Assembly (NCBI RefSeq): GCF_000225345.1
Contig: NC_015977.1
Location: 1,161,501-1,225,500 of the forward strand
Length of the DNA stretch: 64,000 bases
Source of the DNA: Roseburia hominis A2-183
GTDB lineage: Bacteria > Bacillota > Clostridia > Lachnospirales > Lachnospiraceae
Reading direction: 5' to 3'
Part shown: one piece after another, positions 10,629-49,346 of the stretch
Layout: each line of letters starts with the position of its first letter
Position numbering within the stretch: the stretch's first letter is position 1
Made by a program: the position numbers and the translations under genes
Notes under the pieces: model-generated
The model's input: the letters and a program-made list of their open reading frames with translations, nothing else
Databases searched by the model: none
What the model was told of the DNA's origin: nothing

Positions 10629-10762
10629 CGGACCAGTAAAAATGCTTGTGACACCGCCCTTTGGGGCGAGCAGTAACATAGCCCTTTGGAGGGCTTATAG
10701 CAAACCACCAGTTGAACTGGTGGTTGCTGACTTAGAAAGATAGAAGGAAGCAGGAAAAGAAT

Positions 10763-11590
10763 ATGTATATCGGAAATCATCTCTCGGCGTCAAAGGGCTA
10801 TGCGGCGATGGGGCGGATGGCAGTGAAGCTGGGAGCAAATACATTTGCATTTTTTACAAGAAATCCGAGAGGCGGTGCGGCAAAAGCGATTGATCCGGCG
10901 GATGTGGAAAAGCTGCTGGAACTGATGCGGGAGCAGCAATTTGGAAAACTGGTGGCGCATGCACCTTACACGATGAATCTGTGCGCGGCGAAGGAGGATA
11001 TCCGCAAGTTTTCTAAGGAGATGATCGCGGACGATCTGCGCCGGATGGAGTACACGCCGGGGAATTACTACAATTTTCACCCGGGTTCCCATGTCGGACA
11101 GGGGGCGGATGCCGGAATCGAATGGATTGCGGAGGCACTTAACGAGGTGCTCACGCCGGAGCAGACGACGACGGTTCTGCTCGAGACGATGGCGGGAAAA
11201 GGCAGTGAGGTGGGCAGAAGCTTTGAGGAACTGCGCGCGATTATTGACCGTGTAGAGCTGTCCGATAAGCTTGGCATCTGTCTGGATACCTGTCATGTCT
11301 GGGATGCTGGATATGATATTGCGGGAGATCTGGATGGTGTCCTGGAGGAATTTGACCATGTGATCGGTCTGAACCGCCTGTGCGCGGTACATTTTAACGA
11401 CAGCATGAACGACCGCGGTTCGCACAAAGACCGCCATGCCTGCATCGGCGAGGGAAAGATCGGGCTGGATGCGATGCGGCGTGTGGCGACGCATCCGCTG
11501 CTTTCGGACAAGCCGTTTATTCTGGAGACTCCGAATGACGATGAGGGATACCGCAGAGAGATTGCACTTTTCCGGGAGTGGAGGGAGTAG
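10763..11590 (+). CDS. nfo: Endonuclease IV (apurinic/apyrimidinic endonuclease)
   Basis: A 275-residue TIM-barrel AP endonuclease of base excision repair, which cleaves 5' to abasic sites using three zinc ions. Recognisable blocks are the start [57 protein letters not shown] and [16 protein letters not shown], which include the zinc-ligand His, Glu and Asp residues. Length is normal. ATG 10763 follows AGGAAAAGA. It lies directly downstream of the IS200-type element. Confidence 0.95.
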
Positions 11591-11611
11591 ATAAGAATCC
11601 GGAGAAATACA

Positions 11612-11640
11612 TTGCTTTTTAGAAGTGTGTGTGTTATACT
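11612..11640 (+). promoter_or_regulatory. Promoter of the structured RNA downstream of nfo
   Basis: TTGCTT (11612-11617), 17-nt spacer, TATACT (11635-11640). It lies just after the nfo stop codon and about 30 nt before the first base of the structured segment. Confidence 0.7.
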
Positions 11641-11648
11641 TCAAATCA

Positions 11649-11900
11649 CATGAATGCGAAAGCTTTTTCATGCAAATATTTGCCCACCAAGAGATTGGTT
11701 AAGCCCATACGGACAGGCGGGGCAGCTGCCGATGGTGGAGAGATCCACGTTATTGATTGAGTTAGAAGCTCAAATTTTATAAGTTGATGACGACTGCAGG
11801 CGAAGGACTGCAGGACCCTGAATCGTATGCGATAGAGATATCACTTGTGAAACGGTCAATAAGAGTAGTAATAGCAAATATTTGCTGGCGAAGATGCCAA
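11649..11900 (+). ncRNA. Structured non-coding RNA, multi-hairpin; possibly of the raiA-motif type
   Basis: No gene is visible here, but the segment is dense in short perfect hairpins: CATGAA/TTCATG (11649-11672), ACCAA-GAGA-TTGGT (11686-11699), GTGGA-GAGA-TCCAC (11735-11748), TTGAG/CTCAA (11757-11773), CTGCAG/CTGCAG (11794-11813), ATCG-TATG-CGAT (11822-11833) and TGGC/GCCA (11885-11898). The palindrome GCAAATATTTGC occurs twice (11672-11683 and 11874-11885), so the two copies can pair and close the whole domain. It has its own promoter upstream and a terminator downstream. Size and multi-stem layout recall the clostridial raiA-motif RNA, but I recognise this only tentatively. It is not tmRNA, SRP RNA or RNase P RNA by their usual motifs. 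Confidence 0.6.
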
Positions 11901-11971
11901 CGTAGACTCTGATAATAGTTTTTGCAGCATGTAGGACAGATTACATAAAGTATGACTATGAGAATGTGACA

Positions 11972-12016
11972 AGGCAGGTGATGTGTGCGCAGCATATAGG
12001 CATCTGTCTTTTTTTT
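11972..12016 (+). terminator. Terminator after the structured RNA
   Basis: GGCAGGTG (11973-11980) pairs with CATCTGTC (12001-12008) using two G-U pairs. An inner stem forms between GTGTGC and GCATAT. Eight T follow at 12009-12016. It would end a transcript of roughly 370 nt from the promoter at 11612. Confidence 0.65.
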
Positions 12017-12017
12017 G

Positions 12018-12045
12018 TGTAATAGGAAACTTCGTCCCTATTACA
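12018..12045 (+). repeat. Dispersed palindromic repeat, copy 1
   Basis: TGTAATAGG ... CCTATTACA hairpin with loop AAACTTCGTC, followed by TAAAA. Related copies are at 19984-20011 and 30906-30933. In this copy the loop is in the opposite orientation (AAACTTCG rather than CGAAGT). Confidence 0.75.
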
Positions 12046-12077
12046 TAAAAACGCTCCGGGCAGGATTCTTTCTTGTG

Positions 12078-12128
12078 CTACAGAAGATGCCATGTTATGC
12101 GAAAGCATGAAAGTCATGCTTCCTGTAG
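12078..12128 (+). other. Structured leader upstream of speA
   Basis: Outer stem CTACAG (12078-12083) / CTGTAG (12123-12128) extended by AAG/CTT, enclosing ATGC-GAAA-GCAT (12098-12109) and a CATG/CATG pairing. It precedes the speA start by 70 nt. I do not recognise a known riboswitch class, and no terminator follows. A leader role in polyamine or arginine control is only a guess. Confidence 0.35.
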
Positions 12129-12197
12129 AGCCAAAAGCTCTGCCGGACGGCATGCATACCGCATCAGGGAGCATCAAAACAGAATGTGAGGAGAATC

Positions 12198-13667
12198 ATG
12201 GAAGCAGGATCCCAGAAGCGCGCTCCGGTCTACGAAGCGCTGGAACAATTAAAAAAGAGAAGAGTCGTTCCTTTCGATGTGCCGGGGCACAAGAGAGGGC
12301 GTGGCAACCCGGAGCTCGTGGAACTTCTGGGGGAGAAATGTGTGAGTCTGGATGTGAATTCCATGAAGCCGCTTGACAACCTGTGCCATCCGGTGTCGGT
12401 CATCAAAGAGGCGGAGGAACTGGCGGCGGAGGCTTTCCGGGCAGATCACGCGTTTTTTATGGTGGGAGGAACAACGTCCTCCGTGCAGAGCATGGTGTTG
12501 TCGGTCTGTCGTGCCGGGGATAAGATCATCCTGCCGCGCAATGTACATAAGAGTGTGATCAATGCACTGGTACTCTGCGGCGCTATTCCGGTCTATGTGA
12601 ATCCGGAGGTGGACAAAAAGCTTGGCATTTCACTCGGTATGGAGATCTCGGAGGTGGAGCGGGCGATTCTGGAGAATCCGGGCGCGGTGGCGGTTCTTGT
12701 GAACAATCCGACTTATTACGGAATCTGTTCCGATCTGCGCTCCATCGTGAAGCTGGCACATGAACACGAGATGCTTGTGCTTGTGGATGAAGCGCACGGC
12801 ACCCATCTGTATTTCGGGGAGGACCTTCCGGTCTGCGCGATGGATGCCGGTGCAGATATGGCGTCCGTCTCCATGCACAAATCCGGAGGAAGCTTAACAC
12901 AGAGTTCCCTGCTTTTAACCGGCAAAAATGTCAACTGGGAGTATGTCAGCCAGATTATCAACCTCACACAGACGACAAGCGCGTCTTATCTTCTGATGTC
13001 AAGTCTCGACATCTCGCGGAGAAATCTGGCGCTGCGCGGAAGGGAATCGTTCCGCAAAGTGGCGGAGATGGCGGAATATGCCAGGGCGGAGATCAACGAC
13101 ATCGGCGGATATTATGCTTACGGCAAGGATATGGTGAACGGCGGAAGCGTCTATGACTTTGATGTGACGAAGCTCTCAGTCTATACGCGGGGAATCGGTC
13201 TGGCAGGAATCGAGGTCTATGATCTGTTGCGGGATGAGTACGATATCCAGATTGAGCTGGGGGACATTGCCAACATCTTAGCCTACATTTCAATCGGCGA
13301 CCGCATCCAGGATATCGAGCGGCTGGTGGGAGCGTTGGCAGACGTCAAACGCTTGTATTCCAAGGACCCTGCACAGATGTTAAATACAGAATATATAAAT
13401 CCGACTGTTCTTGTTTCACCGCAGGCGGCTTTTTACGCAGAGAAAAAATGCATGCCGATCCGGGAGACGGCAGGAAAGATCTGCGGAGAGTTTGTGATGT
13501 GCTATCCGCCGGGAATTCCGATTCTCGCGCCGGGTGAGATGATTACGCCGGAGATCATCGAATATATCATCTATGCCAAGGAGAAGGGCTGCTCCATGCA
13601 GGGAACGGAAGATCCGGCGGTGGAGCACTTAAATGTCTTAGTGGATGACCGGCAGGTGTGGAAATAA
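12198..13667 (+). CDS. speA: Orn/Lys/Arg decarboxylase family, probable arginine decarboxylase
   Basis: A 489-residue fold-I PLP decarboxylase of the Bacillus SpeA/YaaO type. The PLP lysine is Lys228 in SMHKSGGSLTQSS; LVDEAHGTH supplies the PLP-binding Asp, and FDVPGHKRGRG is the family's N-terminal signature. Neighbouring agmatine deiminase and carbamoylputrescine amidase genes make arginine the most likely substrate (arginine to agmatine). Sequence alone does not exclude lysine or ornithine. ATG 12198 was chosen because GAGGAG lies just upstream; an in-frame GTG at 12186 lies before that site. First gene of the polyamine operon. Confidence 0.9.
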   Translation: MEAGSQKRAPVYEALEQLKKRRVVPFDVPGHKRGRGNPELVELLGEKCVSLDVNSMKPLDNLCHPVSVIKEAEELAAEAFRADHAFFMVGGTTSSVQSMVLSVCRAGDKIILPRNVHKSVINALVLCGAIPVYVNPEVDKKLGISLGMEISEVERAILENPGAVAVLVNNPTYYGICSDLRSIVKLAHEHEMLVLVDEAHGTHLYFGEDLPVCAMDAGADMASVSMHKSGGSLTQSSLLLTGKNVNWEYVSQIINLTQTTSASYLLMSSLDISRRNLALRGRESFRKVAEMAEYARAEINDIGGYYAYGKDMVNGGSVYDFDVTKLSVYTRGIGLAGIEVYDLLRDEYDIQIELGDIANILAYISIGDRIQDIERLVGALADVKRLYSKDPAQMLNTEYINPTVLVSPQAAFYAEKKCMPIRETAGKICGEFVMCYPPGIPILAPGEMITPEIIEYIIYAKEKGCSMQGTEDPAVEHLNVLVDDRQVWK

Positions 13668-14753: not shown

Positions 14754-16013
14754 ATGGGAAGATTATTGATTATCGGATGTGGCGGAGTAGCAGGGGTGGC
14801 AATTCACAAATGCTGCCAGAACAGCAAGACTTTTTCGGAGATCTGCATTGCAAGCCGCACAAAAGAAAAATGTGACGCGTTAAAAGAAAAGCTGCAGGGA
14901 ACGACGGATACAGTGATCACGACAGCGAAGGTGGATGCGGATAATGTGGACGAACTGATCGCACTGATCCGTGACTACAAGCCGGATGCCGTGTTAAATG
15001 TGGCGCTGCCTTACCAGGATCTGACGATTATGGATGCCTGCCTGGCATGCAAGGTGGACTACATCGATACCGCGAACTACGAACCGGAAGATACCGACGA
15101 CCCGGCGTGGCGTGCAATTTATGAGAAGCGCTGCAAGGAGGCGGGCTTTACCGCGTACTTCGATTATTCCTGGCAGTGGGCATATCAGAAACGCTTTACA
15201 GATGCCGGCATCACGGCGCTTCTTGGCAGCGGCTTTGACCCGGGCGTGACGAGCGTGTTTACCGCCTATGCGCTGAAGCATTATTTCGATGAGATCGAGT
15301 ACATCGATATCTTAGACTGCAACGGTGGAGACCACGGTTATCCGTTCGCCACCAATTTCAACCCGGAGATCAACCTCCGCGAGGTATCCGCAAACGGCTC
15401 CTACTGGGAGGACGGACACTGGGTAGAGACAAAACCGATGGAAATTAAAAGAGAATATAATTTCCCACAGGTTGGCGAGAAAGACATGTATCTGCTTCAT
15501 CATGAGGAGATCGAGTCTCTGGCAAAGAATGTGCCGGGAGTCAAGCGCATCCGTTTCTTCATGACCTTCGGTCAGAGCTATCTGACTCATATGCAGTGTC
15601 TGGAGGATGTCGGAATGCTCTCCACTTCCCCGATCCAGTATGAGGGAAGAGAGATCGTGCCGATCCAGTTCTTAAAGGCATTGCTTCCGGATCCGGCGTC
15701 ACTGGGTCCTAGAACCGTTGGCAAGACGAACATCGGTTGTATTTTTACCGGCAAGAAGGATGGCAAGGAAAAGACGATCTATATCTACAACGTCTGCGAT
15801 CACCAGGAGTGCTACAGGGAGGTTGGCTCACAGGCGATCTCCTACACGACAGGAGTTCCGGCAATGATCGGTGCAGCACTTGTTGTAGATAAGGTGTGGG
15901 ATAAGGACGGCGTCTTCAATATCGAGGAGTTTGATCCGGATCCGTTTATGGATATGCTCAATCAGTACGGACTGCCGTGGGTTGTCGATGAGAACCCCAA
16001 GACGGTGGCGTAG
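14754..16013 (+). CDS. Carboxynorspermidine/carboxyspermidine dehydrogenase (saccharopine dehydrogenase family)
   Basis: A 419-residue NAD(P)H-dependent enzyme. The N-terminal Rossmann fold reads LLIIGCGGVAGVAIHKC, followed by ASRTKEK and VNVALPYQD; the saccharopine dehydrogenase-like C-terminal domain contains GSGFDPGVTSVFTAYALKHY. It probably condenses putrescine with aspartate semialdehyde to carboxyspermidine. Its placement 39 bp before the matching decarboxylase nspC and after speA/speE strongly supports this over a lysine-catabolic role. ATG 14754 follows GAGAGGATAAGTAG. A possible internal promoter (TATAAT at 14706-14711, weak -35) lies upstream. Confidence 0.9.
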   Translation: MGRLLIIGCGGVAGVAIHKCCQNSKTFSEICIASRTKEKCDALKEKLQGTTDTVITTAKVDADNVDELIALIRDYKPDAVLNVALPYQDLTIMDACLACKVDYIDTANYEPEDTDDPAWRAIYEKRCKEAGFTAYFDYSWQWAYQKRFTDAGITALLGSGFDPGVTSVFTAYALKHYFDEIEYIDILDCNGGDHGYPFATNFNPEINLREVSANGSYWEDGHWVETKPMEIKREYNFPQVGEKDMYLLHHEEIESLAKNVPGVKRIRFFMTFGQSYLTHMQCLEDVGMLSTSPIQYEGREIVPIQFLKALLPDPASLGPRTVGKTNIGCIFTGKKDGKEKTIYIYNVCDHQECYREVGSQAISYTTGVPAMIGAALVVDKVWDKDGVFNIEEFDPDPFMDMLNQYGLPWVVDENPKTVA

Positions 16014-16052
16014 CCGTTCGTAAAAAGAGCCGGACAGGGAGAGACGAGAGCA

Positions 16053-17249
16053 ATGAAGTGGAATGAACTTCCGACACCATGCTATGTGGTGAATCAGAAA
16101 AAATTAAAAGAGAACTTAATAATATTGCATAATCTGGAGCAGGATACGGGATGCCATGTCCTGCTGGCGCAGAAAGCGTTTTCCACATATGCGCTCTATC
16201 CGTTGATCGGACAATACATCAGCGGTACCACAGCGAGCGGACTCTACGAGGCGCGTCTCGGCGCAGAGGAGATGGGGCGTGAGAACCATGTGTTTGCTCC
16301 GGCGTACAAGGACAGCGATATGGAGGAACTGGTCACGCTCTGCGACCATGTGATTTTTAATTCCTTTGCGCAGTATGTCAGACATAGGAAGAAGGTGGCG
16401 GCGCAGAATGCCGCCAGTGGTACGGAGCACCGTGTCAGCATCGGACTTCGGATCAATCCGGAGTATTCCACGCAGGAGGGACATGCGATCTATGATCCCT
16501 GCGCGCCCGGTTCCAGACTCGGCATGACAAGAGAGGCGTTTGAGAAAGGACTTGCCGGACTTGGCATGAGACGGCAGGAGGATGGAAGCTATGAACTGCC
16601 GGAGGATGTGGAGGGACTCCATTTTCACACGCTCTGCGAGCAGGACGCGGATGATCTGGAATGCACGTTTTATGCGTTTGAGGAGCAGTTTGCTTCTTAT
16701 TTAAAACAGGTCCGGTGGCTGAATCTGGGCGGAGGACATCATATTACCAGACCGGGTTACCAGATAGAGCGTTTAAAGAAGCTTATCGGCTATATCAGGG
16801 AGACCTACGGACTTGCCGTGTATCTGGAGCCCGGCGAGGCGGTTGCCTTAAATGCGGGATATCTGGTAACGGAAGTGTGCGATATTGTACACAACGGGAT
16901 GGATATTCTGATTCTGGATGCGTCTGCGGCGTGTCATATGCCGGACGTTCTTGAGATGCCGTATCGTCCACCGCTTCGGGACGGATTTGCGGCGGGGGAG
17001 CAGAAATACACCTATCGGCTGTCCTCGCTCACCTGTCTGGCGGGGGACGTCATCGGGGACTACAGTTTCACACATGAGATTCAGATCGGCGACCGTCTGG
17101 TGTTTGAGGACATGGCAATCTACTCGATGGTGAAGAATAATACCTTTAATGGAATTCCGCTTCCGTCGATCGCAATGCTCCGGGAAGACGGGGAGGTTGA
17201 GATGTTAAAGCAGTTCGGCTATGAAGATTTCAAAGGGCGGTTGTCATAA
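16053..17249 (+). CDS. nspC: Carboxynorspermidine/carboxyspermidine decarboxylase
   Basis: A 398-residue fold-III PLP decarboxylase related to DAP and ornithine decarboxylases. The start LPTPCYVVNQKKLKENL and the PLP lysine in LLAQKAFSTYAL identify NspC. The glycine-rich phosphate site reads LNLGGGHH; the HTLCEQDADDL and DASAACHMPDVLEMPYRPP segments are characteristic. It removes the carboxyl group of carboxyspermidine to give spermidine, working with the dehydrogenase encoded 39 bp upstream. ATG 16053 follows AGAGACGAGAGC. Confidence 0.93.
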   Translation: MKWNELPTPCYVVNQKKLKENLIILHNLEQDTGCHVLLAQKAFSTYALYPLIGQYISGTTASGLYEARLGAEEMGRENHVFAPAYKDSDMEELVTLCDHVIFNSFAQYVRHRKKVAAQNAASGTEHRVSIGLRINPEYSTQEGHAIYDPCAPGSRLGMTREAFEKGLAGLGMRRQEDGSYELPEDVEGLHFHTLCEQDADDLECTFYAFEEQFASYLKQVRWLNLGGGHHITRPGYQIERLKKLIGYIRETYGLAVYLEPGEAVALNAGYLVTEVCDIVHNGMDILILDASAACHMPDVLEMPYRPPLRDGFAAGEQKYTYRLSSLTCLAGDVIGDYSFTHEIQIGDRLVFEDMAIYSMVKNNTFNGIPLPSIAMLREDGEVEMLKQFGYEDFKGRLS

Positions 17250-17281
17250 CCGGTTTTGAAAGACATCCGGGACAAGGGAAG

Positions 17282-18499
17282 ATGACTTGGATGAGGGTAG
17301 AGGAAATGGAGAAAAAGATGCAAAAGTGTGCAGAAGATCCAAAAGAGAGAATGACAACGCCGCAGGCGGACGGATTTTTTATGCCGGGGGAGTACGAACC
17401 GCATGACGGCTGTATTCTGATCTGGCCGTCGCGCCCGGGTTCCTGGATTTACGGCGCACGCGATGCGCGGATTGCATTCCGGGATGTGATTGCAGCGATT
17501 GCGCAGAGTGAAAACGTATATGTGGCAGCCGGGCGGGATGCCATTGACTCCGCGCGAGAGATGCTGATCGGTGAGGACGCGCCGTGGAAAAAGCGGGTGA
17601 CGGTCTTTGAACTGGAGACAGACGATGCCTGGGCAAGAGATGTGGCGCCGACCTTTGTGAAAGACGGCGCCGGCAGGATGCGGGCAGTGAATTGGTCATT
17701 TAACGCCTGGGGAGGATCGGTGGACGGACTGTATGCATCCTGGGCGTTGGACGATGCGTTTGCAAAGGCGTTTGCCGCAAAGTATGGCTATGCGTGTTAC
17801 GATGCCGCGCCGTTTGTACTGGAGGGCGGATCGATTCACAGCGACGGTGAGGGGACGCTTCTGGTGACGGAGGCGTGCCTTTTGAGCGCGGGGCGCAATC
17901 CGGGGCTTACGCGCGGGGAGATCGAGGAGAAGCTTAGAACTTATCTTGGCATAGAAAAAGTGCTGTGGCTGCCGCGTGGAATCTATCAGGATGAGACGAA
18001 CGAACATGTGGATAACGTCTGCGCGTTCCTGCGCCCGGGCGAGGTGGTGCTTGCCTGGACGGACGATGAAACAGATCCCCAGTATCCGCTATCACAGCAG
18101 ACGCTTGCGTACCTGGAGGGCGAGACGGATGCGCGCGGAAGAAAGCTTGTCATTCACAAGCTTCCGATTCCCGATCATCCGGTCTGCATTACAGAGGAGG
18201 AACTGGCAGGTTATTCGTTTGCCGAAGGGGAGGATGAGCGGGAGGCGGGAGAGCGTCTTGCGGCATCCTACGTGAACTTTTATTTTTCCAATGAGGCAGT
18301 TATTCTTCCGGCGTTCGGCGGGGAGAATGAGGAGAGTGACAGGCGCGCTGCCGCACTGCTTGCGCAGTGGAATCCGGGGCGGAAGATTATTTCGGTGCAG
18401 GCGCGTGCAATTTTAGTCGGCGGCGGGAATATCCACTGTATTACACAGCAGATCCCGGCGGCAAAAATGCAGCAGCAAAACGCAGCAGCAAAAATGTAG
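17282..18499 (+). CDS. aguA: Agmatine deiminase
   Basis: A 405-residue guanidino-group-modifying enzyme (PPAD fold) that converts agmatine to N-carbamoylputrescine and ammonia. Signatures are PGEYEPHDGCILIWPSRPGS, the DDAWARDVAPTFV block, NAWGG, and the C-terminal catalytic Cys386 in GGGNIHCITQQIP. The N-terminus is uncertain: the family usually begins near TTPQADGF (residue 24 of this call), and the ribosome binding site before 17282 is close. After the catalytic motif the protein ends in a low-complexity AAKMQQQNAAAKM tail produced by an AGCAGCAAAA repeat in the DNA. It directly precedes aguB. Confidence 0.93.
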   Translation: MTWMRVEEMEKKMQKCAEDPKERMTTPQADGFFMPGEYEPHDGCILIWPSRPGSWIYGARDARIAFRDVIAAIAQSENVYVAAGRDAIDSAREMLIGEDAPWKKRVTVFELETDDAWARDVAPTFVKDGAGRMRAVNWSFNAWGGSVDGLYASWALDDAFAKAFAAKYGYACYDAAPFVLEGGSIHSDGEGTLLVTEACLLSAGRNPGLTRGEIEEKLRTYLGIEKVLWLPRGIYQDETNEHVDNVCAFLRPGEVVLAWTDDETDPQYPLSQQTLAYLEGETDARGRKLVIHKLPIPDHPVCITEEELAGYSFAEGEDEREAGERLAASYVNFYFSNEAVILPAFGGENEESDRRAAALLAQWNPGRKIISVQARAILVGGGNIHCITQQIPAAKMQQQNAAAKM

Positions 18500-18538
18500 C
18501 AGCGGTAAAGTGGACAGAGACAAAAAGAGGAAAAGAGC

Positions 18539-19417
18539 ATGAACAGAGTGAAAGTGGCGGCAATTCAGATGCGCTGTGCGGCGTCTGTGGAGGAGAATTT
18601 AAAAAAGGCGGAAGCCATGGTGCGAAAGGCGGCGGCAGAGGGAGCAAACGTGATCCTTCTGCCGGAACTTTTTGAGCGGGAATATTTTTGCCAGCAGCGC
18701 CGGTATGACTTCTATCATTATGCAAAGCCTGTGATGGAGAACGATGCGGTGCGCATGGGCATGCGGCTTGCCGCGGAGCTTGGTGTGGTGCTCCCGATCA
18801 GCTTTTATGAGCGGGATGTGAACAACCTGTACAATTCCATCGCCTGTATCGACGCGGACGGAACAGTGCTCGGCGTTTATCGCAAGACGCATATCCCGGA
18901 TGATCATTACTATCAGGAAAAGTTCTATTTTACGCCGGGGGATACCGGATTTCAGGTATTTTCTACGCGCTACGGCAGAATCGGCGTGGGAATCTGCTGG
19001 GATCAGTGGTTTCCGGAGAGCGCGCGCTGTATGGCGCTTGCAGGGGCGGAGCTGCTTTTTTATCCGACGGCGATCGGATCGGAACCGATCTTAGAGTGCG
19101 ACAGTATGCCGCACTGGAGACGCTGTATGCAGGGACATGCGGCAGCCAATCTGATGCCCGTTGTTGCGGCAAACCGGATCGGGGAGGAGACGGTAGAACC
19201 CTGTGAGGAAAACGGCGGACAGCGTTCGGCGCTTGTTTTTTACGGATCGTCTTTCCTGACCGATGAGACCGGAGAAATTCTGGCGGAGGCAGGGCGCGAC
19301 GAGGAAGAGATACTGGTGCAGGAATATGACCTGGACGAGCTGGATGCCAGACGGCTGGAGTGGGGGCTGTTCCGCGACAGGCGCCCGGAGTGCTACGGCA
19401 TCATCAGCGGCAGGTAA
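18539..19417 (+). CDS. aguB: N-carbamoylputrescine amidase
   Basis: A 292-residue nitrilase-superfamily hydrolase that converts N-carbamoylputrescine to putrescine, CO2 and ammonia. The Glu-Lys-Cys triad is visible in LLPELFEREYF, YRKTHIPDD and GVGICWDQWFPE. The substrate-family signature LLFYPTAIGSEP follows. Length is normal. ATG 18539 follows AGAGGAAAAGAGC. It is the last gene of the polyamine operon, 39 bp after aguA, and a new promoter starts 14 bp after its stop. Confidence 0.95.
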   Translation: MNRVKVAAIQMRCAASVEENLKKAEAMVRKAAAEGANVILLPELFEREYFCQQRRYDFYHYAKPVMENDAVRMGMRLAAELGVVLPISFYERDVNNLYNSIACIDADGTVLGVYRKTHIPDDHYYQEKFYFTPGDTGFQVFSTRYGRIGVGICWDQWFPESARCMALAGAELLFYPTAIGSEPILECDSMPHWRRCMQGHAAANLMPVVAANRIGEETVEPCEENGGQRSALVFYGSSFLTDETGEILAEAGRDEEEILVQEYDLDELDARRLEWGLFRDRRPECYGIISGR

Positions 19418-40786: not shown

Positions 40787-40811
40787 ACTTGTCCCGCAAA
40801 ACATGTATAAT
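40783..40811 (+). promoter_or_regulatory. trpS promoter
   Basis: TTGAAC (40783-40788), 17-nt spacer, TATAAT (40806-40811), 33 nt upstream of the trpS start. The leader is too short for a T-box. Confidence 0.8.
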
Positions 40812-40844
40812 AGAGCAAGAATATGTTTGACAGGGGAAATGACA

Positions 40845-41936
40845 ATGGCAGAAAAGATTATTTTGACAGGCGACCGTCCTACCGGCAAGCTGCATGTGGG
40901 ACATTATGTGGGTTCTCTGAAGCGGAGAGTGGAACTTCAGAATTCGGGAACGTTTGATAAGATTTTTATTATGATTGCGGACGCACAGGCATTGACGGAC
41001 AACGCCGACAATCCCGCAAAGGTGCGCGACAATATTATGGAGGTGGCGCTCGACTACCTTTCGGTCGGAATCGATCCGGCGAAGTCTCATATTTTTATCC
41101 AGTCCTACGTGACGGAGCTGACGGAGCTGACCTTCTATTACCAGAATCTGGTTACGGTCTCCAGATTACAGCGCAACCCGACGGTTAAGGCGGAGATTCA
41201 GATGCGCAACTTCGAGGCGAGCATTCCGGTCGGATTTTTCAATTATCCGATCAGCCAGGCGGCGGACATTACGGCATTCCATGCGACGACGGTTCCGGTC
41301 GGCGAGGATCAGATGCCGATGCTTGAGCAGACCAAGGAGATTGTACATAAGTTTAATGCGGTGTATGGCGAGACGCTCACAGACCCGCAGATTTTACTCC
41401 CGGATAACAAGGCCTGCTTAAGACTTCCAGGTACCGACGGAAAGGCCAAAATGAGCAAGTCGCTCGGCAACTGCATCTATCTCTCGGAGAGCGAGGCAGA
41501 TGTGAAGAAGAAGATTATGTCCATGTTCACGGACCCGGATCACATCCGGATCGAAGATCCGGGAAAGCTCGAGGGCAATACCGTATTTACCTATCTGGAT
41601 GCATTCTGTACGGACGAGCACTTCGTGGAGTATCTGCCAGAGTATGCGAACCTGGATGAGCTCAAGGCACATTACAAACGCGGTGGCCTAGGCGATGTCA
41701 AGGTGAAGAAGTTCCTGAATAACGTCATGCAGGAGGAGTTGTCTCCGATCCGTGCGCGCAGAAAGGAATACGAGCAGCGCATCGGCGATGTGTATGATAT
41801 TTTAAAGGCGGGAAGCGAAGTGGCAAAGGAAGCGGCTGCAAAGACACTTTCTGAAGTAAAGCATGCCATGAAGATTGATTATTTTGATACACCGGAGTTC
41901 CTGGAGGAACAGGTGAAGAAGTATCTTGACAGATAA
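40845..41936 (+). CDS. trpS: Tryptophanyl-tRNA synthetase
   Basis: About 363 residues, class I. The HIGH-type motif is in GDRPTGKLHVGHYVGSLKRR and the KMSKS motif is KMSKSLGN. The MIADAQALTDNADNP segment supports the TrpRS identity. This is the longer TrpRS subgroup whose N-terminus reads DRPTGKLHVGHYVGSL. ATG 40845 follows AGGGGAAATGAC; the frame reaches back to 40803 over the promoter. It precedes the Dlt-like cluster after 36 bp. Confidence 0.95.
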   Translation: MAEKIILTGDRPTGKLHVGHYVGSLKRRVELQNSGTFDKIFIMIADAQALTDNADNPAKVRDNIMEVALDYLSVGIDPAKSHIFIQSYVTELTELTFYYQNLVTVSRLQRNPTVKAEIQMRNFEASIPVGFFNYPISQAADITAFHATTVPVGEDQMPMLEQTKEIVHKFNAVYGETLTDPQILLPDNKACLRLPGTDGKAKMSKSLGNCIYLSESEADVKKKIMSMFTDPDHIRIEDPGKLEGNTVFTYLDAFCTDEHFVEYLPEYANLDELKAHYKRGGLGDVKVKKFLNNVMQEELSPIRARRKEYEQRIGDVYDILKAGSEVAKEAAAKTLSEVKHAMKIDYFDTPEFLEEQVKKYLDR

Positions 41937-41972: not shown

Positions 41973-43493
41973 TTGAATTGTGTGTTGGATCGTTTGGAAG
42001 CGACGGTAAGCAGGTATAAAGAGCGGGCGGCGGTCGATGACGGGAGCGTTTCTTACACGTGGGGAGAACTGCTGGAGCTTGCGCAACGCATCGGGTCAGC
42101 TTTATGCAGGAAACACGTCATACGAAAGCCTGTCGCTGTCGTGATGGATAAATCAGCAGATACCCTGGCTGCATTTCTGGGAGTTGTATATGCAGGGGCA
42201 TTTTATGTGCTGATTAATCCGGAATATCCTAATGTGCGGATTGAAAAAATTCTCGCCACACTACAGACGGATCAGATGATTCTGGATGTGCAGTATGAGG
42301 AGAAGATGCGTGCATGTGGCTATCAGGGAAATATGGTTCCAATCGAAGCGGCAAAGCAGACTGACATTGATTCTGTGTCGTTGGACCGGGTGAGAGCACA
42401 GAGTTTGGATCAGGATCTCTTATATGGGATTTTTACATCGGGATCCACAGGGATGCCAAAAGGAGTGATTGTAAATCAGCGTGCGGTGGTTGATTTTATC
42501 GAGCAGTTTGCGAAAACGTTTGATTTCTCGGAGTGTGATGTGATCGGCAATCAGGCTCCGTTTGATTTTGATGTGTCGGTGAAGGATATATATACATCCA
42601 TTTTTACGGGAGCAAAGCTTGTTCTGATCCCAAAGCAGATGTTTTCCATGCCGCCATCGCTTCTGGATTTCCTGTGTGAGAAGCATGTGACATCTCTGAC
42701 CTGGGCGGTTTCCGCACTTTGCATGGTGACGACACTGCGCGGATTTGAGTACCGTGTGCCGTCGGAGGTACGCCGGGTGCTTTTCAGCGGGGAAGTGATG
42801 CCATATAAGCATCTGAAAGCCTGGCGGGAGGCACTGCCGGCGGCAGAGTTTGTCAATCTGTATGGACCTACGGAGATTGTGTGTAACTGTACCTATTACC
42901 GGGTAAGAGGCGATGAACCGGAGGATGCGGCACTTCCGATCGGAAGTGCGTTTGGCAATCGTCTGGTATTTCTGTTGGATGATCAGAACTGTGTGATCAG
43001 AGATGCCGGGATACAGGGCGAGATCTGCGTGGCGGGCACTTCCCTGGCAAGTGGGTATTACAATAATCCACAGGCGACGGAGAAGAGCTTTGTACAGAAT
43101 CCAGAGAATCAGAGTTATCCGCAGGTAATCTACCGCACAGGAGATATCGGTACTTATAATGATGAGGGGCTGCTGTGTTTTGCAGGACGCAGGGATTTTC
43201 AGGTTAAGCGTATGGGACACCGCATTGAGCTGGAGGAGATTCAGTTGACATTGGATCAGACGGAAGGTGTGACACGCAGTTGCTGTATCTACGGGGAGCA
43301 GGAGCAGAAACTGGTGGCATTTTACGTTGGAGAGATCGATAAAAAAGAGTTGCGTCGAAAAGTAAAGGAACAGATGCCGGCGTTTATGCTGCCGGATAAG
43401 TTTTTACATATGGATGAGATGCCGATGACAAAGAATGGAAAAATTGACCGCGCGGCTCTCTGGAATCATTACAGGGAGGAGAAGAGAAGATGA
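41973..43493 (+). CDS. Stand-alone amino acid adenylation enzyme (DltA-like)
   Basis: A 506-residue ANL-superfamily ligase. Core motifs: FTSGSTGMPKGV (A3, 154-165), NQAPFDFDVSVKDIYTSI (A4, amine-binding Asp200), LYGPTE (A5, 297-302), YRTGD (A7), GRRDFQVKRMGHRIELEEI (A8) and NGKIDR (A10, catalytic Lys490). It activates an amino acid as AMP ester and should load the carrier protein encoded two genes on. The overall sequence is closest to DltA, but the FCGEV segment of DltA reads FSGEV here, at the position reported to affect D-alanine choice. The substrate is thus open. Start TTG 41973 lies 7 nt after GAGGA. Confidence 0.85.
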   Translation: MNCVLDRLEATVSRYKERAAVDDGSVSYTWGELLELAQRIGSALCRKHVIRKPVAVVMDKSADTLAAFLGVVYAGAFYVLINPEYPNVRIEKILATLQTDQMILDVQYEEKMRACGYQGNMVPIEAAKQTDIDSVSLDRVRAQSLDQDLLYGIFTSGSTGMPKGVIVNQRAVVDFIEQFAKTFDFSECDVIGNQAPFDFDVSVKDIYTSIFTGAKLVLIPKQMFSMPPSLLDFLCEKHVTSLTWAVSALCMVTTLRGFEYRVPSEVRRVLFSGEVMPYKHLKAWREALPAAEFVNLYGPTEIVCNCTYYRVRGDEPEDAALPIGSAFGNRLVFLLDDQNCVIRDAGIQGEICVAGTSLASGYYNNPQATEKSFVQNPENQSYPQVIYRTGDIGTYNDEGLLCFAGRRDFQVKRMGHRIELEEIQLTLDQTEGVTRSCCIYGEQEQKLVAFYVGEIDKKELRRKVKEQMPAFMLPDKFLHMDEMPMTKNGKIDRAALWNHYREEKRR

Positions 43494-44686
43494 GACAGGA
43501 AGTGCTGGCAGAAGCTGCCGGAGAATTTCAGACTCCCTGCTACGTGTTTGACCTCGATCGTCTGAGAGAGGATGTCGCGGAAATGAAGACATTACTTGCA
43601 GACCGTGTGGGACTTTGTTTTGCGATGAAGGCAAATCCATTTCTGACAGAGGATATGGCAGAAATGACGGACTATATTGAAGTCTGTTCTCCGGGGGAAC
43701 TGCGGATCTGTATCGAGCAGAAAATTCCGGCAGAGAAGATGATTCTTTCCGGCGTATTAAAAGAAGAACAGGATATCAGGGAACTTCTGGAAAAGGAGAA
43801 GTTGCCGCATTTTACGGCAGAATCAATGGATCAGGTAGATCTTTTTTTGTGTCTATCCAGAGAATATGGACGAAATGTGGAGCTGTTGCTGCGTCTTACG
43901 AGTGGAAATCAGTTTGGAATGGATGAGGACGTTTTGCTTGAGTCGGTCGATAAGATTCTACAGCAGAAGTATGTGCAGTTCGCAGGGATCCATTTTTTCT
44001 CGGGAACGCAGAAGAGAAAAAGTGAACAGATCCGCAAGGAACTGGGACAGCTCGCGGAGGTATGTGACAGGATCTGGGAACGGTTTGGTCTTAAAGTGCC
44101 GCGGCTCGAATATGGACCTGGATTTGGCGTGGAGTACTTTAAAGGTACAAAGAAATGGGGAAGAGAAGAGGCACTGGCGATGCTTTCTGATGCGGCGGAC
44201 TGTGTCACAGAACTTCATTTTCCGGGAACGGTCACATTTGAGATGGGAAGATTCCTTGCAGCAATGTGTGGCAGCTTTGTCACAAAAGTGCGGGAAGTAA
44301 AGGAGAATCAGGGGACGAGGTATTGTCTGGTGGATGCTGGCATGCATCACCTGAACTACGATGGACAGGTTATGGCGATGAAAACACCGTTCTGCACGCC
44401 GCTTTTTGCACGTGAGGGGGAAGAAGAGCAGAATTACTGCATCTGTGGTGCACTCTGCACGGCAAATGATATTCTGATCCGCCAGTATCCTTTAAAAGGT
44501 GTTCGCCCGGGGGATCTTCTGGTATTTGAGCGCACGGGTGCGTATTCCATGACGGAGGGAATGTCACTTTTTTTAAGCCGGGATCTTCCGGCGGTGGTAA
44601 GCTACTGCAAGACGGAGGGCTTTCGGGTGCTGCGGAGCAGAATGCCGGTTTATCCGCTTAATAAAGCGGCAGATAGAATTTTATAA
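43490..44686 (+). CDS. Fold-III PLP-dependent amino acid decarboxylase in a Dlt-like cluster
   Basis: A 398-residue relative of diaminopimelate/ornithine decarboxylases. It has TPCYVFDLDRL, the PLP lysine Lys47 in GLCFAMKANPFL, YGPGFGVEYF as phosphate-binding loop, CLVDAGMHHLNYDG, ICGALCTANDIL with the catalytic Cys, and GAYSMTEGMSLFLSR. No lysine pathway gene adjoins it. Overlap with the adenylation gene (4 bp) and the carrier protein next door suggests action on a carrier-bound aminoacyl group, as BtrK does on glutamyl-BtrI in butirosin synthesis. Action on a free amino acid cannot be excluded. Confidence 0.8.
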   Translation: MRQEVLAEAAGEFQTPCYVFDLDRLREDVAEMKTLLADRVGLCFAMKANPFLTEDMAEMTDYIEVCSPGELRICIEQKIPAEKMILSGVLKEEQDIRELLEKEKLPHFTAESMDQVDLFLCLSREYGRNVELLLRLTSGNQFGMDEDVLLESVDKILQQKYVQFAGIHFFSGTQKRKSEQIRKELGQLAEVCDRIWERFGLKVPRLEYGPGFGVEYFKGTKKWGREEALAMLSDAADCVTELHFPGTVTFEMGRFLAAMCGSFVTKVREVKENQGTRYCLVDAGMHHLNYDGQVMAMKTPFCTPLFAREGEEEQNYCICGALCTANDILIRQYPLKGVRPGDLLVFERTGAYSMTEGMSLFLSRDLPAVVSYCKTEGFRVLRSRMPVYPLNKAADRIL

Positions 44687-44703
44687 AGAGGGAGAAATGA
44701 AGA

Positions 44704-44934
44704 ATGGAAGAATTATTGGAGATTTTAGAGGAGATTAATCCGGATGTGGATTATAGTACATGTACAACACTGATTGATGATCATTTGCTGGATTCGTTTG
44801 CAATCCTCTCGCTGGTATCAGAGATCGGGGATACATTTGATGTGCAGATCGCACCAGGAGATATGATTGCAAAGAACTTTAATTCTGCAGAAGCTATCTG
44901 GGCAATGATACAGAGACTGGAGGAAGAAGGCTGA
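44704..44934 (+). CDS. Acyl/aminoacyl carrier protein (DltC-like)
   Basis: A 76-residue carrier protein. The phosphopantetheine site is Ser31 in DDHLLDSFAILSLVSEIG, matching the LLDSM/LDS motif of carrier proteins. It is acidic and helical, as expected. It would carry the amino acid activated by the upstream adenylation enzyme. ATG 44704 follows GAGGGAGAAATGAAG. The MBOAT gene begins 1 bp after its stop, so they are tightly coupled. Confidence 0.88.
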   Translation: MEELLEILEEINPDVDYSTCTTLIDDHLLDSFAILSLVSEIGDTFDVQIAPGDMIAKNFNSAEAIWAMIQRLEEEG

Positions 44935-44935
44935 T

Positions 44936-46525
44936 ATGGCATATCATACAATGCTGTTTCTGCTGGTATTTCTGCCACTCATTCTGATCTGTTACCAGAT
45001 TGCCGGAACAAAATACCGTCCGTATGTGCTGCTGGCGGCAGGATACATTTTTTTTGCTTCTTTCAGTGGGATACTTCTACTGTATCTGTTTGGGGCGACG
45101 GTTATCATGTATGCGGCAGGACTCTGGATCGATCACATCGGACAGGAGTTCAAAGAAAAGAAAAATGGGCTTGCACGCAGTGAGGTAAAGCAGCTCAAAA
45201 AAAAGTTTACCGGAAAAAAGCGGGCAGTACTTTGCGGCAGTCTTGTGCTTCTGGTCGGGGTACTGTTTATCGTGAAGTATTATAATTTTTTCGCGGAGAA
45301 TCTTTCAGCAGTATTTCGCCTTCTGACCTTGCCTATCTGCCTGAAGAGTATTCGGTTTCTACAGCCGATAGGTATTTCCTTTTACACACTGCAGGCGGTC
45401 AGCTATGTGGTAGATATCTATGAGGGGAAGAACAGGGCTGAACGACAGTTTGGAAAGGTTGCGTTGTACATGGCATTTTTCCCACAAATCATGGAGGGAC
45501 CGATCAGCCGGTTTGATCAGACGGCGGATCAGCTGTGGAAGGGAACAGCAATTAGCAGCGAAAATCTTACCATGGGTGCGCAGCGTGTACTGTGGGGATT
45601 ATTTAAAAAGATTGTGATTGCAGACCGGCTGGATCGGGCAGTAGGAGTTGCCTTTTTGAATTACCAGAGCTATGATGGTGCAATTCTGGCTCTTGCCGCA
45701 GTGGCATATACCGTGCAGCTTTACAATGAATTTTCAGGATGTATGGATATTGTGATTGGCGTGGCAGAGATGTTTGGTGTTGTGCTGCCGGAAAATTTCA
45801 GGCAGCCATTTCTGTCAAAAAATGTATCAGAATTCTGGCGCAGATGGCATATCACACTTGGCGCGTGGCTGAAAGACTATATTTTTTATCCGGTATCCCT
45901 TACCGGATGGGTACAGAAGCTTGGAACCAGAGCTAAGGCGCGGTTTGGAAAGCATGGCGCTAAAGTAGCGGTATCCGCAGCTGCTCTTTTTCCGGTATGG
46001 CTGCTCAATGGACTGTGGCACGGGCAGCACTGGAATTATATTTTTTTCGGTATGTATTACTTCGTTCTGATTATGGCAGGAATTCTTTGTGAACCGCTGA
46101 TTGCGGTATTCTATGAAAAATGCGGCAGACTGGTGAAAAGTAAGGGGTATGCAGTTTTTCAGATCGTGCGTACCAGTGTGCTGGTGGTGATCGGTGAGAT
46201 GATCTTTCGGGCAAACGGGGCAAAAGCTGCGATTGTTATGCTAAAGACCGTATTCGGACATTCCCACATGACGGCTTTGGGACAGATGGATCTGCCGTCT
46301 TTCGGGATTGATAGGGCAGATATCGCGATCGTTTTGTGTGGTGTTATACTGGTAACTGTGGTGGGGCTGCTCCATGAGCGGGGGATCTCTATCCGGCGGA
46401 AGATTGTCACACTGCCGACACCGGCACGTTGGTGTTGTTATTATGTAATGATCCTGCTTCCACTTATCTTTGGGGCCTTCGGAGACGGATATCTGGAAGT
46501 GGAGTTGATCTATGCGAATTTTTAG
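44936..46525 (+). CDS. MBOAT-family O-acyltransferase (AlgI/DltB-like)
   Basis: A 529-residue polytopic membrane protein. It begins MAYHTMLFLLVFLPLILICY; GISFYTLQAVSYVVDIYEGK, FFPQIMEGPISRF, EFWRRWHITLGAWLKDYIFY and LLNGLWHGQHWNYIFFG are classical MBOAT blocks, the last with the catalytic His362. It should move the carrier-bound acyl group across or onto the outer face of the membrane. It is longer than DltB (about 400) and nearer AlgI in size. ATG 44936 follows GGAGGAAGAAGGCTGAT; the gene starts 1 bp after the carrier stop. Confidence 0.92.
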   Translation: MAYHTMLFLLVFLPLILICYQIAGTKYRPYVLLAAGYIFFASFSGILLLYLFGATVIMYAAGLWIDHIGQEFKEKKNGLARSEVKQLKKKFTGKKRAVLCGSLVLLVGVLFIVKYYNFFAENLSAVFRLLTLPICLKSIRFLQPIGISFYTLQAVSYVVDIYEGKNRAERQFGKVALYMAFFPQIMEGPISRFDQTADQLWKGTAISSENLTMGAQRVLWGLFKKIVIADRLDRAVGVAFLNYQSYDGAILALAAVAYTVQLYNEFSGCMDIVIGVAEMFGVVLPENFRQPFLSKNVSEFWRRWHITLGAWLKDYIFYPVSLTGWVQKLGTRAKARFGKHGAKVAVSAAALFPVWLLNGLWHGQHWNYIFFGMYYFVLIMAGILCEPLIAVFYEKCGRLVKSKGYAVFQIVRTSVLVVIGEMIFRANGAKAAIVMLKTVFGHSHMTALGQMDLPSFGIDRADIAIVLCGVILVTVVGLLHERGISIRRKIVTLPTPARWCCYYVMILLPLIFGAFGDGYLEVELIYANF

Positions 46526-46534
46526 GAGGATCAG

Positions 46535-47485
46535 ATGAACAGAGTGAAGAAAATAGTAAGGTATCTTTTGTTTTTTGGGATACTTGCAGTGATTTTTCTG
46601 GGATTGTCACGGGTCTTCTATCCAAAGGATAATTCAGTAGAGGCGGGAATGCCGCCGCGTGATGTAAAGGTCAACGGAATCTTTGGGGCAGAGAACAATT
46701 CGCTGGACGTTATTTTCTTTGGAGACAGTATCACGTTTACATCGATAAAACCGGTGCAGATATGGGAAGAGCAGGGGATTGCGTCGTATGTGTGCGGGCA
46801 GTCCGGTCAGATTATACCGGAAGCGTATAACTGGCTGAAACAGATTCTGGAGAAGCAGTCTCCGGATATTGTTGTATTAGAGACGAATCTGATCTATATG
46901 GATGGCAGTATGGCAGATCAGCTTAATCATGCGCTCGAGCTGCAGCTTGCAAGTGATCTTCCGTTTTATAAATATCACAACCGCTGGAAGAATATGGATG
47001 AGTCAGACTGGAGCAGGCAGCCGGAGGAACCGAAGCCCGATTTTACGATGGGATATGAGAAAAAGACAGCGATAGTGCCTTACACAGGTGGTGACTATAT
47101 GCAGACGGAATCGGCAAAGGAGCCTCTGGCTTTTGTACCGGAAAGCTATCTTGACGCAGTGCACAGACTTTGTGAAAAAAATAACATTCAGATGATGCTG
47201 GTAAGTATTCCGTCTCCACAGAGCTGGAACGGATCACGCCATGATGCGGTAACAGAATATGCACAGGAGCATGATGTGCTATATCTGGATCTGAATTTGT
47301 ATGCAGAAGAACTCGGGATCGACTGGAAGTCTGACACACTTGATGGGGGAGATCACCTGAATGAAGCCGGCGCCACGAAGGTATCAAAATATCTGGGGAC
47401 TTTTCTGAAGGAAAGGTATGGTTTGACAGATCATCGTGGAAATGCTGCTTATACAGTGTGGGATAGACTGGTGGAAGATCAGTAA
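46535..47485 (+). CDS. Membrane-anchored SGNH-hydrolase-like protein (DltD-like role)
   Basis: A 316-residue protein with one N-terminal membrane helix (about 6-26) and an extracytoplasmic SGNH domain. The nucleophile motif is FFGDSITFTS (Ser65); TNLIY supplies the Asn block; LDGGDHLNEAGA carries the Asp/His (His274). In Dlt and alginate-type systems a partner of this kind receives the acyl group from the MBOAT or assists transfer to the polymer. ATG 46535 follows AGGAGGATCAG, 9 bp after the MBOAT stop. Last gene of the five-gene cluster. Confidence 0.85.
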   Translation: MNRVKKIVRYLLFFGILAVIFLGLSRVFYPKDNSVEAGMPPRDVKVNGIFGAENNSLDVIFFGDSITFTSIKPVQIWEEQGIASYVCGQSGQIIPEAYNWLKQILEKQSPDIVVLETNLIYMDGSMADQLNHALELQLASDLPFYKYHNRWKNMDESDWSRQPEEPKPDFTMGYEKKTAIVPYTGGDYMQTESAKEPLAFVPESYLDAVHRLCEKNNIQMMLVSIPSPQSWNGSRHDAVTEYAQEHDVLYLDLNLYAEELGIDWKSDTLDGGDHLNEAGATKVSKYLGTFLKERYGLTDHRGNAAYTVWDRLVEDQ

Positions 47486-47657: not shown

Positions 47658-49346
47658 ATGGAAAACGAAAATGTCTCAAAGAATTTTATTGAGCAGATGA
47701 TTGATAAGGACATCGAGGAAGGGCACTGCAAGGTTGTTCATACCAGATTTCCACCGGAACCGAATGGCTATCTGCATATCGGCCATGCGAAGTCCATTCT
47801 TTTGAATTATGGTCTGGCACAGAAGTATGGCGGAAAGTTTAATCTGAGATTTGATGATACAAATCCTACCAAGGAGAAGACCGAGTTCGTGGAGGCGATC
47901 ACGGAGGACATCAAGTGGCTTGGCGCGGACTGGGAAGGCAGACTTTTCTTCGCATCCGATTATTTCGATCAGATGTATGAGTGTGCCGTAGAGCTGATTA
48001 AAAAAGGAAAAGCTTATGTCTCCGATCTGTCTGCGGAGCAGATCCGTGAGTACCGAGGAACTCTGACGGAGCCGGGCAAGGAAGATCCGTACAGCGGCAG
48101 AAGTGTCAAGGAGAACTTAAAGCTGTTTGAGGAGATGCGGGAAGGAAAGTACGCGGATGGTGAGAAAGTGCTCCGCGCACGCATCGATATGAGTTCTTCC
48201 AACATCAATATGAGAGATCCGGTCATTTACCGTGTGGCGCATATGACACACCACAGAACCGGCGATAAATGGTGCATCTATCCGATGTATGATTTTGCAC
48301 ATCCGCTCGAGGATGCGATCGAGGGAATCACGCATTCCATCTGTACGCTGGAGTTTGAGGATCACAGGCCACTTTATGAGTGGGTCATCAACGAGGTGGG
48401 CGCACAGATTATTCCGGATAAGGATGAGATGCCGCCGAGACAGATTGAGTTTGCAAAGCTGTATCTGACCAACGTGGTAACCGGCAAGCGTTACATCAAG
48501 CGCCTGGTTGAGGAAGGTATTGTGGACGGATGGGATGATCCGCGTCTGGTATCCATCGCAGCGCTGCGCAGAAGAGGATTTACACCGGAATCGTTAAAGA
48601 TGTTCGTGGAACTGTGCGGTATTTCAAAGGCAAACAGTTCCGTTGACTATGCAATGTTAGAGTACTGCATCCGCGAGGATCTCAAGATGAAGAAGTCCCG
48701 TATGATGGCAGTCCTTGATCCGGTGAAGGTTGTGATTGACAACTATCCGGAAGGACAGACTGAGTATCTGGACGTTGTGAATAATCTGGAGAATGAGGCG
48801 CTCGGTTCACGTAAGATTCCGTTCTCAAGAGAACTCTATATCGAGCGTGAAGACTTCATGGAGGAGCCACCGAAAAAGTATTTCCGTATGTTCCCGGGCA
48901 ATGAAGTGCGCCTGATGAATGCATATTTTGTAACCTGCAACAGCTTTGAGAAGGATGCAGACGGCAACGTGACGGTGATCCATTGTACTTACGATCCGGC
49001 GTCCCGCGGCGGCAACAGCCCGGATGGCAGAAAGGTAAAAGGTACGATTCACTGGGTATCCGCAGCACATGCGGTTCCTGCAACGGTCAGACTGTATGAG
49101 AATATCGTGGACGAGGAAAAAGGGGTATACAATGAGGATGGAAGTCTGAACCTCAATCCGAATTCACTGACTGTGTTAAAGAACTGTATGGTGGAGGAGA
49201 ATCTTGCTGGGGCAAAGGCTTACGACAGTTTCCAGTTTGTACGCCAGGGATTCTTCTGTGTGGATGCAAAGGATTCGACGCCGGAGCAGCTGGTGTTCAA
49301 CCGCATTGTGTCACTGAAGAGTTCATTCAAGCTGCCAACTGCGTAG
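47658..49346 (+). CDS. glnS: Glutaminyl-tRNA synthetase
   Basis: A 562-residue class I synthetase. [20 protein letters not shown] has the HIGH motif, and [30 protein letters not shown] and the C-terminal anticodon-binding beta barrels fit GlnRS. The region of the second class I motif reads [13 protein letters not shown] instead of the common VMSKRKL, but is followed by the conserved GWDDPRL. ATG 47658 follows TTGAGGAGGATGCGACATT. Many Clostridia charge tRNA-Gln through GatCAB, so a full glnS is informative. Confidence 0.93.

Follow-up and report, generated by a model that had tools for sequence, protein, structure and literature searches.

We describe a cluster of five genes in the genome of Roseburia hominis A2-183 (NC_015977.1) whose products probably carry out a Dlt-like acylation of the cell envelope with a decarboxylated acidic amino acid as the donor, a reading to which we assign a probability of roughly two in three. 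The cluster spans positions 41973-47485 of the window, as we term the whole stretch of 64,000 nucleotides that was analysed (1,161,501 to 1,225,500 of the forward strand of the contig), and codes, on the plus strand throughout, for an adenylation enzyme (A), a pyridoxal phosphate-dependent decarboxylase (D), a carrier protein (C), an MBOAT (M) and an SGNH-type protein (S). The union of Dlt-like transfer with decarboxylation of the BtrK type had been proposed in an earlier note on this DNA; it is still the best reading and is partly supported by the way D tracks the pocket code of A, by BtrK being the nearest relative of D, and by a motif in M. The label Dlt itself has to be given up: A, C and M score 283.9, 30.1 and 149.7 bits with the NCBIfam models for DltA, DltC and DltB, against cut-offs of 559.85, 68 and 375, and the cluster is therefore Dlt-like rather than a dlt operon.

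The first gene of the cluster, A (41973..43493), has a TTG start and codes for a free-standing adenylation enzyme of 506 residues for amino acids, which is recovered by PF00501, PF13193 and TIGR01733 in a profile scan. Its pocket code, read by alignment, is DVKTLSLCNK (D200, V201, K204, T243, L270, S272, L296, C304, N305 and K490), as against DLMVLCTVAK in all seven canonical DltA proteins compared, and Lys204 (42582..42584) aligns with pocket position 239 in the numbering of GrsA. The residues Leu236 and Cys301 of the D-alanine pocket are replaced in A by Val and Ser; the latter is the exchange of FCGEV for FSGEV that had already been pointed out, and Cys is present in each of the seven DltA examined. 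The predicted fold of A (mean predicted local distance difference test score 89.6) is closest to the A domains of nonribosomal peptide synthetases and to DltA, and is uninformative on the substrate since it matches A domains of many specificities. The match of A in the PDB to linear gramicidin synthase A (385 bits) sums two domains and does not imply a specificity for Gly or Val. The passages of PMC12283262 that were searched held no match to this pocket code (here and below, papers are cited by PMC number for particular passages of them).

Because loci selected through D favour D, we based a census of tailoring partners on a search for A itself across 392 genomes of the order Lachnospirales, which scored no more than three candidates in each genome and recovered 114 places in 104 genomes; further copies of A may therefore exist. 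The census holds 115 A open reading frames (ORFs) of at least 325 bits, namely 113 of the 114 places together with L160 and L162 (L and G numbers denote our loci and genomes), which were reached via D and are both of the IAR type; a second A gene of the R. hominis genome (L079/L274, code DAPIMCLYAK, with no adjoining D) was left out. By pocket code these divide into DVK..S.CN (37), DAKC (29), DSKD (22), IAR (10), VAR (1), SM (5) and others (11). D lies beside A, that is on the same strand within 7 kb, in 33 of the 37 DVK cases and in 10/10 IAR cases (8/8 without L160 and L162), as compared with 0/1 for VAR and 0/67 for the remaining codes (0/68 together). In the four DVK exceptions (L239, L240, L241 and L273) D is found elsewhere in the genome (G201, G425, G330 and G186, respectively), and in G425 it adjoins an IAR-type A. 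The earlier note had held that absence of the decarboxylase from homologous clusters would speak against its proposal; such absence is what is seen with the other codes (0/68), but not with the window's own code (33/37), which marks D as code-specific and not an accidental neighbour.

The other classes have partners of their own. An Asp/Glu-type racemase stands beside A in 23 of 29 DAKC cases and in none of the other 86, and scores over both TIGR00035 and a cysteate racemase model in 4/4 tested. Likewise, a GNAT gene accompanies 21/22 A genes of the DSKD class (the single miss is a 3.3-kb contig) and the one VAR gene (1/1), as opposed to 0/92 of the others. Lys or Arg occupies position 239 in 101 of the 115 A genes, 54 of which lie outside the D-bearing codes. 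A basic residue at this position suggests acidic substrates for A, and taken with the racemase and the code-linked partners it points to most members of the family using acids, and to a tailoring role for D in one branch. A quick tree was built from 75 of the 115 census A proteins and seven DltA; in it the named classes form clades apart from DltA (at 100). The DVK and IAR/VAR clades are neighbours (87), and the linkage of D to the code should therefore not be counted as many independent events.

For the decarboxylase we collected relatives from 34 loci on genome contigs and from the 392 genomes, in each of which no more than three or four candidates were scored, dropped ORFs under 300 residues (e.g. 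L038 and L171), and reduced the remaining 84 to 77 distinct D genes at 95% identity, the window included. D itself (43490..44686; PF02784 and PF00278) belongs to the fold-III, alanine-racemase-fold class. Its closest solved sequence is BtrK (E 5e-35; best diaminopimelate decarboxylase 2e-22), which also ranks first in Foldseek and is tied with diaminopimelate decarboxylases in VIA-align. The note's description of an intact Lys47 and Cys motif applies to the whole set, with Lys at 47 in 77/77 and Cys at 323 in 77/77. The residue adjoining the catalytic cysteine is Thr or Ser in 77/77 (Thr324 in the window; BtrK likewise has CT) and acidic in 0/77. With the LysA model D scores 178 bits against a cut-off of 297.9; a separate LysA-like gene in the window reaches 277 bits, just under the same cut-off, and NspC is found over its cut-off at 16053-17249. 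The surroundings of the latter (14754-19417) resemble, with neighbours named by eye, a polyamine gene group. BtrK decarboxylates carrier-bound glutamate (PMC7857480), and in the window the carrier gene begins 17 bases downstream of D. Among the substrates that had been suggested for this enzyme, Glu and Asp are thus favoured, and Lys, ornithine, diaminopimelate or another diamino acid disfavoured. No D residue separating the DVK from the IAR clade was found at 85%.

The second half of the proposed pathway rests on M (44936..46525; 529 residues; PF03062). Its C-terminus is LIYANF (46505..46522), a feature absent from the earlier note, which has the form of an FXYXXF-like tyrosine acyl-shuttle motif with Tyr526 as the shuttle residue; this kind of motif was reportedly first described in 2023. 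Of the 52 M proteins encoded near D, 51 end in xxYxx[FY], the exception (L036) being a split ORF, and in the census centred on A 91/92 end in xxYxx[FYI], as against none of five canonical DltB proteins inspected. The catalytic histidine previously assigned to M, His305, is kept in 52/52, and His362 in 51/52. S (46535..47485), with a hydrophobic N-terminal stretch seen by eye, is recognized only weakly, its GDSL match falling under the Pfam cut-off, though the SGNH assignment is upheld by Ser65 in a GDS motif (50/50) and His274 (49/50). In Dlt systems the acyl group passes to the tyrosine in the FXYXXF of DltX, and a very similar motif is fused at the C-terminus of other MBOATs; PatA auto-acetylates its motif tyrosine, and one of the PatA peptides tested was FIYANF (PMC12148441). 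By analogy with this chemistry, established in other proteins, the acyl group would travel from the carrier to the tyrosine of M, the serine of S and the polymer. Three further MBOATs of the R. hominis genome have an FxYxxF end, and no A gene was found in the 14-15 kb around each. A separate observation concerns the region just upstream of the window (L083:7291-9762), where an MBOAT ending in FLYFQF is followed by a possible partner protein that has no Pfam match.

The five genes are tightly packed: A and D overlap by 4 bases, D is 17 bases from C, C is 1 base from M, and M is 9 bases from S. ORFs and family scans thus bear out the one-strand arrangement with overlaps or very short gaps that had been described, as does the phosphopantetheine serine, Ser31 in DDHLLDSF, of C (44704..44934), a protein with no Pfam match and a weak DltC match in NCBIfam. 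In a survey of neighbourhoods, of the kind that the earlier note had called for, a gene counted as near D if it lay no more than 6.5 kb away on the same strand, some misses being due to contig ends. By this measure A accompanies 73 of the 77 distinct D genes, C 70, M 52 and S 50, and the full set is present in 47. The order of the genes varies (ADCMS, MSADC, ACDMS, SACDM and DCAMS among others), and the presence of A and C near 73 and 70 D genes despite this shuffling argues that the association is not due to chance. D relatives (E <= 1e-40) occur in 49/392 genomes of the order and in 4/398 genomes of the phylum, two of them outside the order; the contig loci carry titles including Lachnospiraceae, Oscillospiraceae, Coriobacteriaceae and Atopobiaceae. 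All 12 genomes searched in which D has no M nearby have an MBOAT elsewhere (207 to 444 bits), which is not evidence of partnership in trans, as the best MBOAT in three of them (G193, G240 and G398) is part of a cluster of the racemase type. Some remote relatives of D (L166, L169, L172 and L147) adjoin A enzymes with other pocket types, and by eye the gene sets at L166, L169 and L147 are unlike envelope acylation.

From the gene set, the catalytic residues, the shuttle motif and the association of D with particular A codes, which can be read from the sequences themselves, we infer the substrate, the carboxylate that is loaded, the order of loading and decarboxylation, and the acceptor as follows. 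A would adenylate Asp or Glu through the side-chain carboxylate and load it on C; D would then act on the loaded carrier in the manner of BtrK and VinO, taking off the free alpha-carboxylate to leave beta-alanyl-C if Asp was loaded or gamma-aminobutyryl (GABA)-C if it was Glu. M would take the acyl group onto its own extracytoplasmic Tyr526, and S would accept it on Ser65 and esterify an envelope polymer, either of the teichoic type or a surface polysaccharide. If an alpha-decarboxylase works on the carrier-bound acid, it is the side-chain carboxylate that must form the thioester, and side-chain adenylation is known for aminoadipate (PMC7147772). We lean weakly to Asp and beta-alanine over Glu and GABA. 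Val236 and Ser301 of A favour recognition of the VinN kind, whereas its loop does not. As the product has a free amine, the ester would be expected to add positive charge, which the earlier note had linked to antimicrobial peptide resistance, a possible consequence.

Other readings of the cluster have to be weighed against loading followed by decarboxylation on the carrier. D might first decarboxylate free Asp, Glu or another free acid, with A then activating beta-alanine or GABA, so that the same decoration arises in another order. A related pathway provides a precedent in IdnL3, which decarboxylates free beta-glutamate (PMC11284099), and Asp235 of the pocket is a possible contact for the amino group of beta-alanine; still, the conserved Lys/Arg at position 239 would lack a partner in either product and the nearest solved relative of D acts on a carrier-bound substrate, which makes this order unlikely. 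Alternatively, A could load the acid via its alpha-carboxylate and the polymer carry Asp or Glu, leaving D a side or editing role. This would suit the standard-length pocket loop and Asp235, both compatible with alpha-amino recognition, and the racemase-bearing sister clusters, which suggest that intact acidic residues are usable. However, we consider it quite improbable, since an alpha-thioester offers an alpha-decarboxylase no alpha-carboxylate, and D stands beside 43/47 A genes of the DVK and IAR codes.

A secreted small molecule as the end product, in place of an ester on the envelope, seems very improbable, even if sets of A, D and C are also at work in natural product pathways (PMC11284099, PMC7756342) and the distant D relatives at L166, L169 and L147 sit in other gene sets: an M with the shuttle motif and an S accompany most clusters (52 and 50 of 77), and polysaccharide genes surround some clusters of the IAR type. 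It is scarcely credible that the product of D is a diamine or a diamino acid (Lys, ornithine, diaminopimelate, 2,4-diaminobutyrate) and that a basic amino acid is the decoration. Fold-III decarboxylases do often act on diaminopimelate, ornithine or Lys, yet the lack of an acidic residue next to the catalytic cysteine throughout the 77 D genes, the separate LysA-like and NspC genes of the window and the basic position 239 of A all tell against it. Ordinary D-alanylation with an unrelated decarboxylase inserted would account for the kinds of protein, which are those of Dlt, but is extremely improbable in view of the missed DltA, DltB and DltC cut-offs, the different pocket code, the separation of the A clade from DltA and the shuttle motif fused to M.

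Compared with Dlt (DltA, DltC, DltB, DltX and DltD), the cluster differs in its pocket code, its extra decarboxylase and the fusion of the shuttle motif to the MBOAT. PatA/PatB, an MBOAT-SGNH pair with a fused FXYXXF, shares the C-terminal tyrosine hexapeptide, the MBOAT histidine and the SGNH partner with the cluster; PatA uses acetyl-CoA, whereas the window cluster has a dedicated carrier and adenylation enzyme for donor supply. Butirosin biosynthesis (BtrI/BtrK) provides the nearest solved relative of D and a parallel for the small carrier gene beside it. There, BtrJ is a ligase of a different type from PF00501 A enzymes, while in the window the ligase is such an A enzyme and the product would go to the MBOAT-SGNH pair instead of an aminoglycoside. 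Glycinylation of lipid A by AlmE/AlmF/AlmG transfers glycine, is not known to involve a decarboxylase and uses a different final transferase. It does share with the cluster a Dlt-like A enzyme and a carrier for envelope aminoacylation (AlmE: PMC11253843). The exosortase A-associated ligase and decarboxylase show the same pairing of enzymes, with their models far under the cut-offs here (TIGR03098 194.6/592.35, TIGR03099 180.5/478.45).

VinN/VinO/VinL, FlvN and BolO/BolN/BolC likewise combine an A enzyme, a PLP-dependent decarboxylase and a stand-alone carrier for Asp-type acids, though their end use lies in polyketides or peptides, unlike that of the window cluster. VinN loads 3-methylaspartate and not its decarboxylated form, 3-aminoisobutyrate, on VinL, where VinO decarboxylates it, and FlvN takes Asp (PMC11284099). 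BolO/BolN/BolC have been proposed to load and decarboxylate Asp on the carrier, and beta-alanine failed to rescue a bolN mutant (PMC7756342). VinN and BolO use Asp230, Ser299 and Arg331 (PMC7756342), and the loop of VinN, which carries Lys330/Arg331, is shorter (PMC11253843). When aligned via the numbering of GrsA, A keeps the equivalents of Asp230 and Ser299 (D200 and S272); its beta13-beta14 loop is of DltA length with Cys/Asn at the site of Lys330/Arg331, in place of which it has the basic residue at 239.

A keyword search of open-licence papers (titles, starts of abstracts and passages) found no report of a BtrK-like decarboxylase joined to Dlt-like envelope transfer. The parts are known, and we file the cluster as a variant of MBOAT-SGNH aminoacylation and not of Dlt. 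With three or four candidates scored per genome at the most, canonical DltA was found in just 7/392 genomes of the order (E <= 1e-120; 5 over cut-off), as against 49 with a D relative and 104 with an A relative, and the search of the R. hominis genome found no DltA over the NCBIfam cut-off. Dlt-type esters set the surface charge of Gram-positive bacteria and affect their sensitivity to antimicrobial peptides. With slightly less than even confidence, we suggest that Lachnospirales and some neighbours have diversified Dlt-like systems for envelope aminoacylation that couple an A code to a tailoring enzyme, be it a decarboxylase (beta-alanyl or GABA esters), a racemase (D-Asp-type) or a GNAT (N-acylated esters), and that largely replace canonical D-alanylation in this order, amounting to a varied surface aminoacyl-ester code in gut Firmicutes. 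Were such esters indeed to stand in for D-Ala, the surface chemistry of major commensals would have been misread. The clusters would also be small A-tailoring-carrier sets for making omega-aminoacyl thioesters, and with them one could ask if a carrier can also serve as donor to an MBOAT that has the shuttle motif fused to it.

In the D-less Dlt-like clusters of the DAKC class (racemase genes at L209:8134-8868, L210:5743-6483, L212:5950-6663 and L218:5827-6510) the decoration may be of the D-Asp type, and in those of the DSKD/VAR classes (GNAT genes at L202:8195-8989, L204:3194-3976, L206:8554-9354 and L220:972-1799) it is possible that the GNAT N-acylates the carrier-bound amino acid. The SM class (L221, L233, L235, L266 and L272) has the code SMxYLALD and lacks Asp235; at L221 a gene of the Orn/Lys/Arg decarboxylase type lies about 0.4 kb downstream of S. 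The second A gene of the R. hominis genome forms a pair with a carrier gene (L079:6488-8240), with neither M nor S found in 15 kb and with neighbours that by eye resemble glycan genes.

As to the acceptor, three IAR-type clusters (L151, L154 and L170) are situated among polysaccharide genes, and different clusters may thus have different acceptors. The R. hominis genome codes for three sulfatase-family proteins, the two scanned of which match LtaS only, at 70.1 and 44.4 against a cut-off of 970. At L140, about 3 kb separates a gene of the canonical DltA type from an A-C-D set of the IAR type, and a YfhO-family protein is encoded in between.

The cluster is flanked on the same strand by two tRNA synthetase genes, an upstream one of the W/Y class (tRNA-synt_1b; 40803..41936), which ends 36 bases before A and with which the cluster is possibly cotranscribed, and a downstream one of the E/Q class (glnS-like; 47658..49346). 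Scans of the sequence gave 13 promoters (shuffles 9.3, sd 4.0) and 17 terminators (4.9, sd 2.7) and did not make the operon boundary clear. The same five genes as in the window are present in a metagenome-assembled genome (L005). There and at L016, L146, L149, L153 and L155 a neighbour resembles by eye the window's glnS-like gene, suggesting an old shared neighbourhood; four of these clusters are ADC only. At L128 a histidine kinase (10675-12006) and an OmpR-type response regulator (11993-12715) adjoin the cluster, and among the loci of the 76 other D genes relatives of the kinase occur in 15 and of the regulator in 14.

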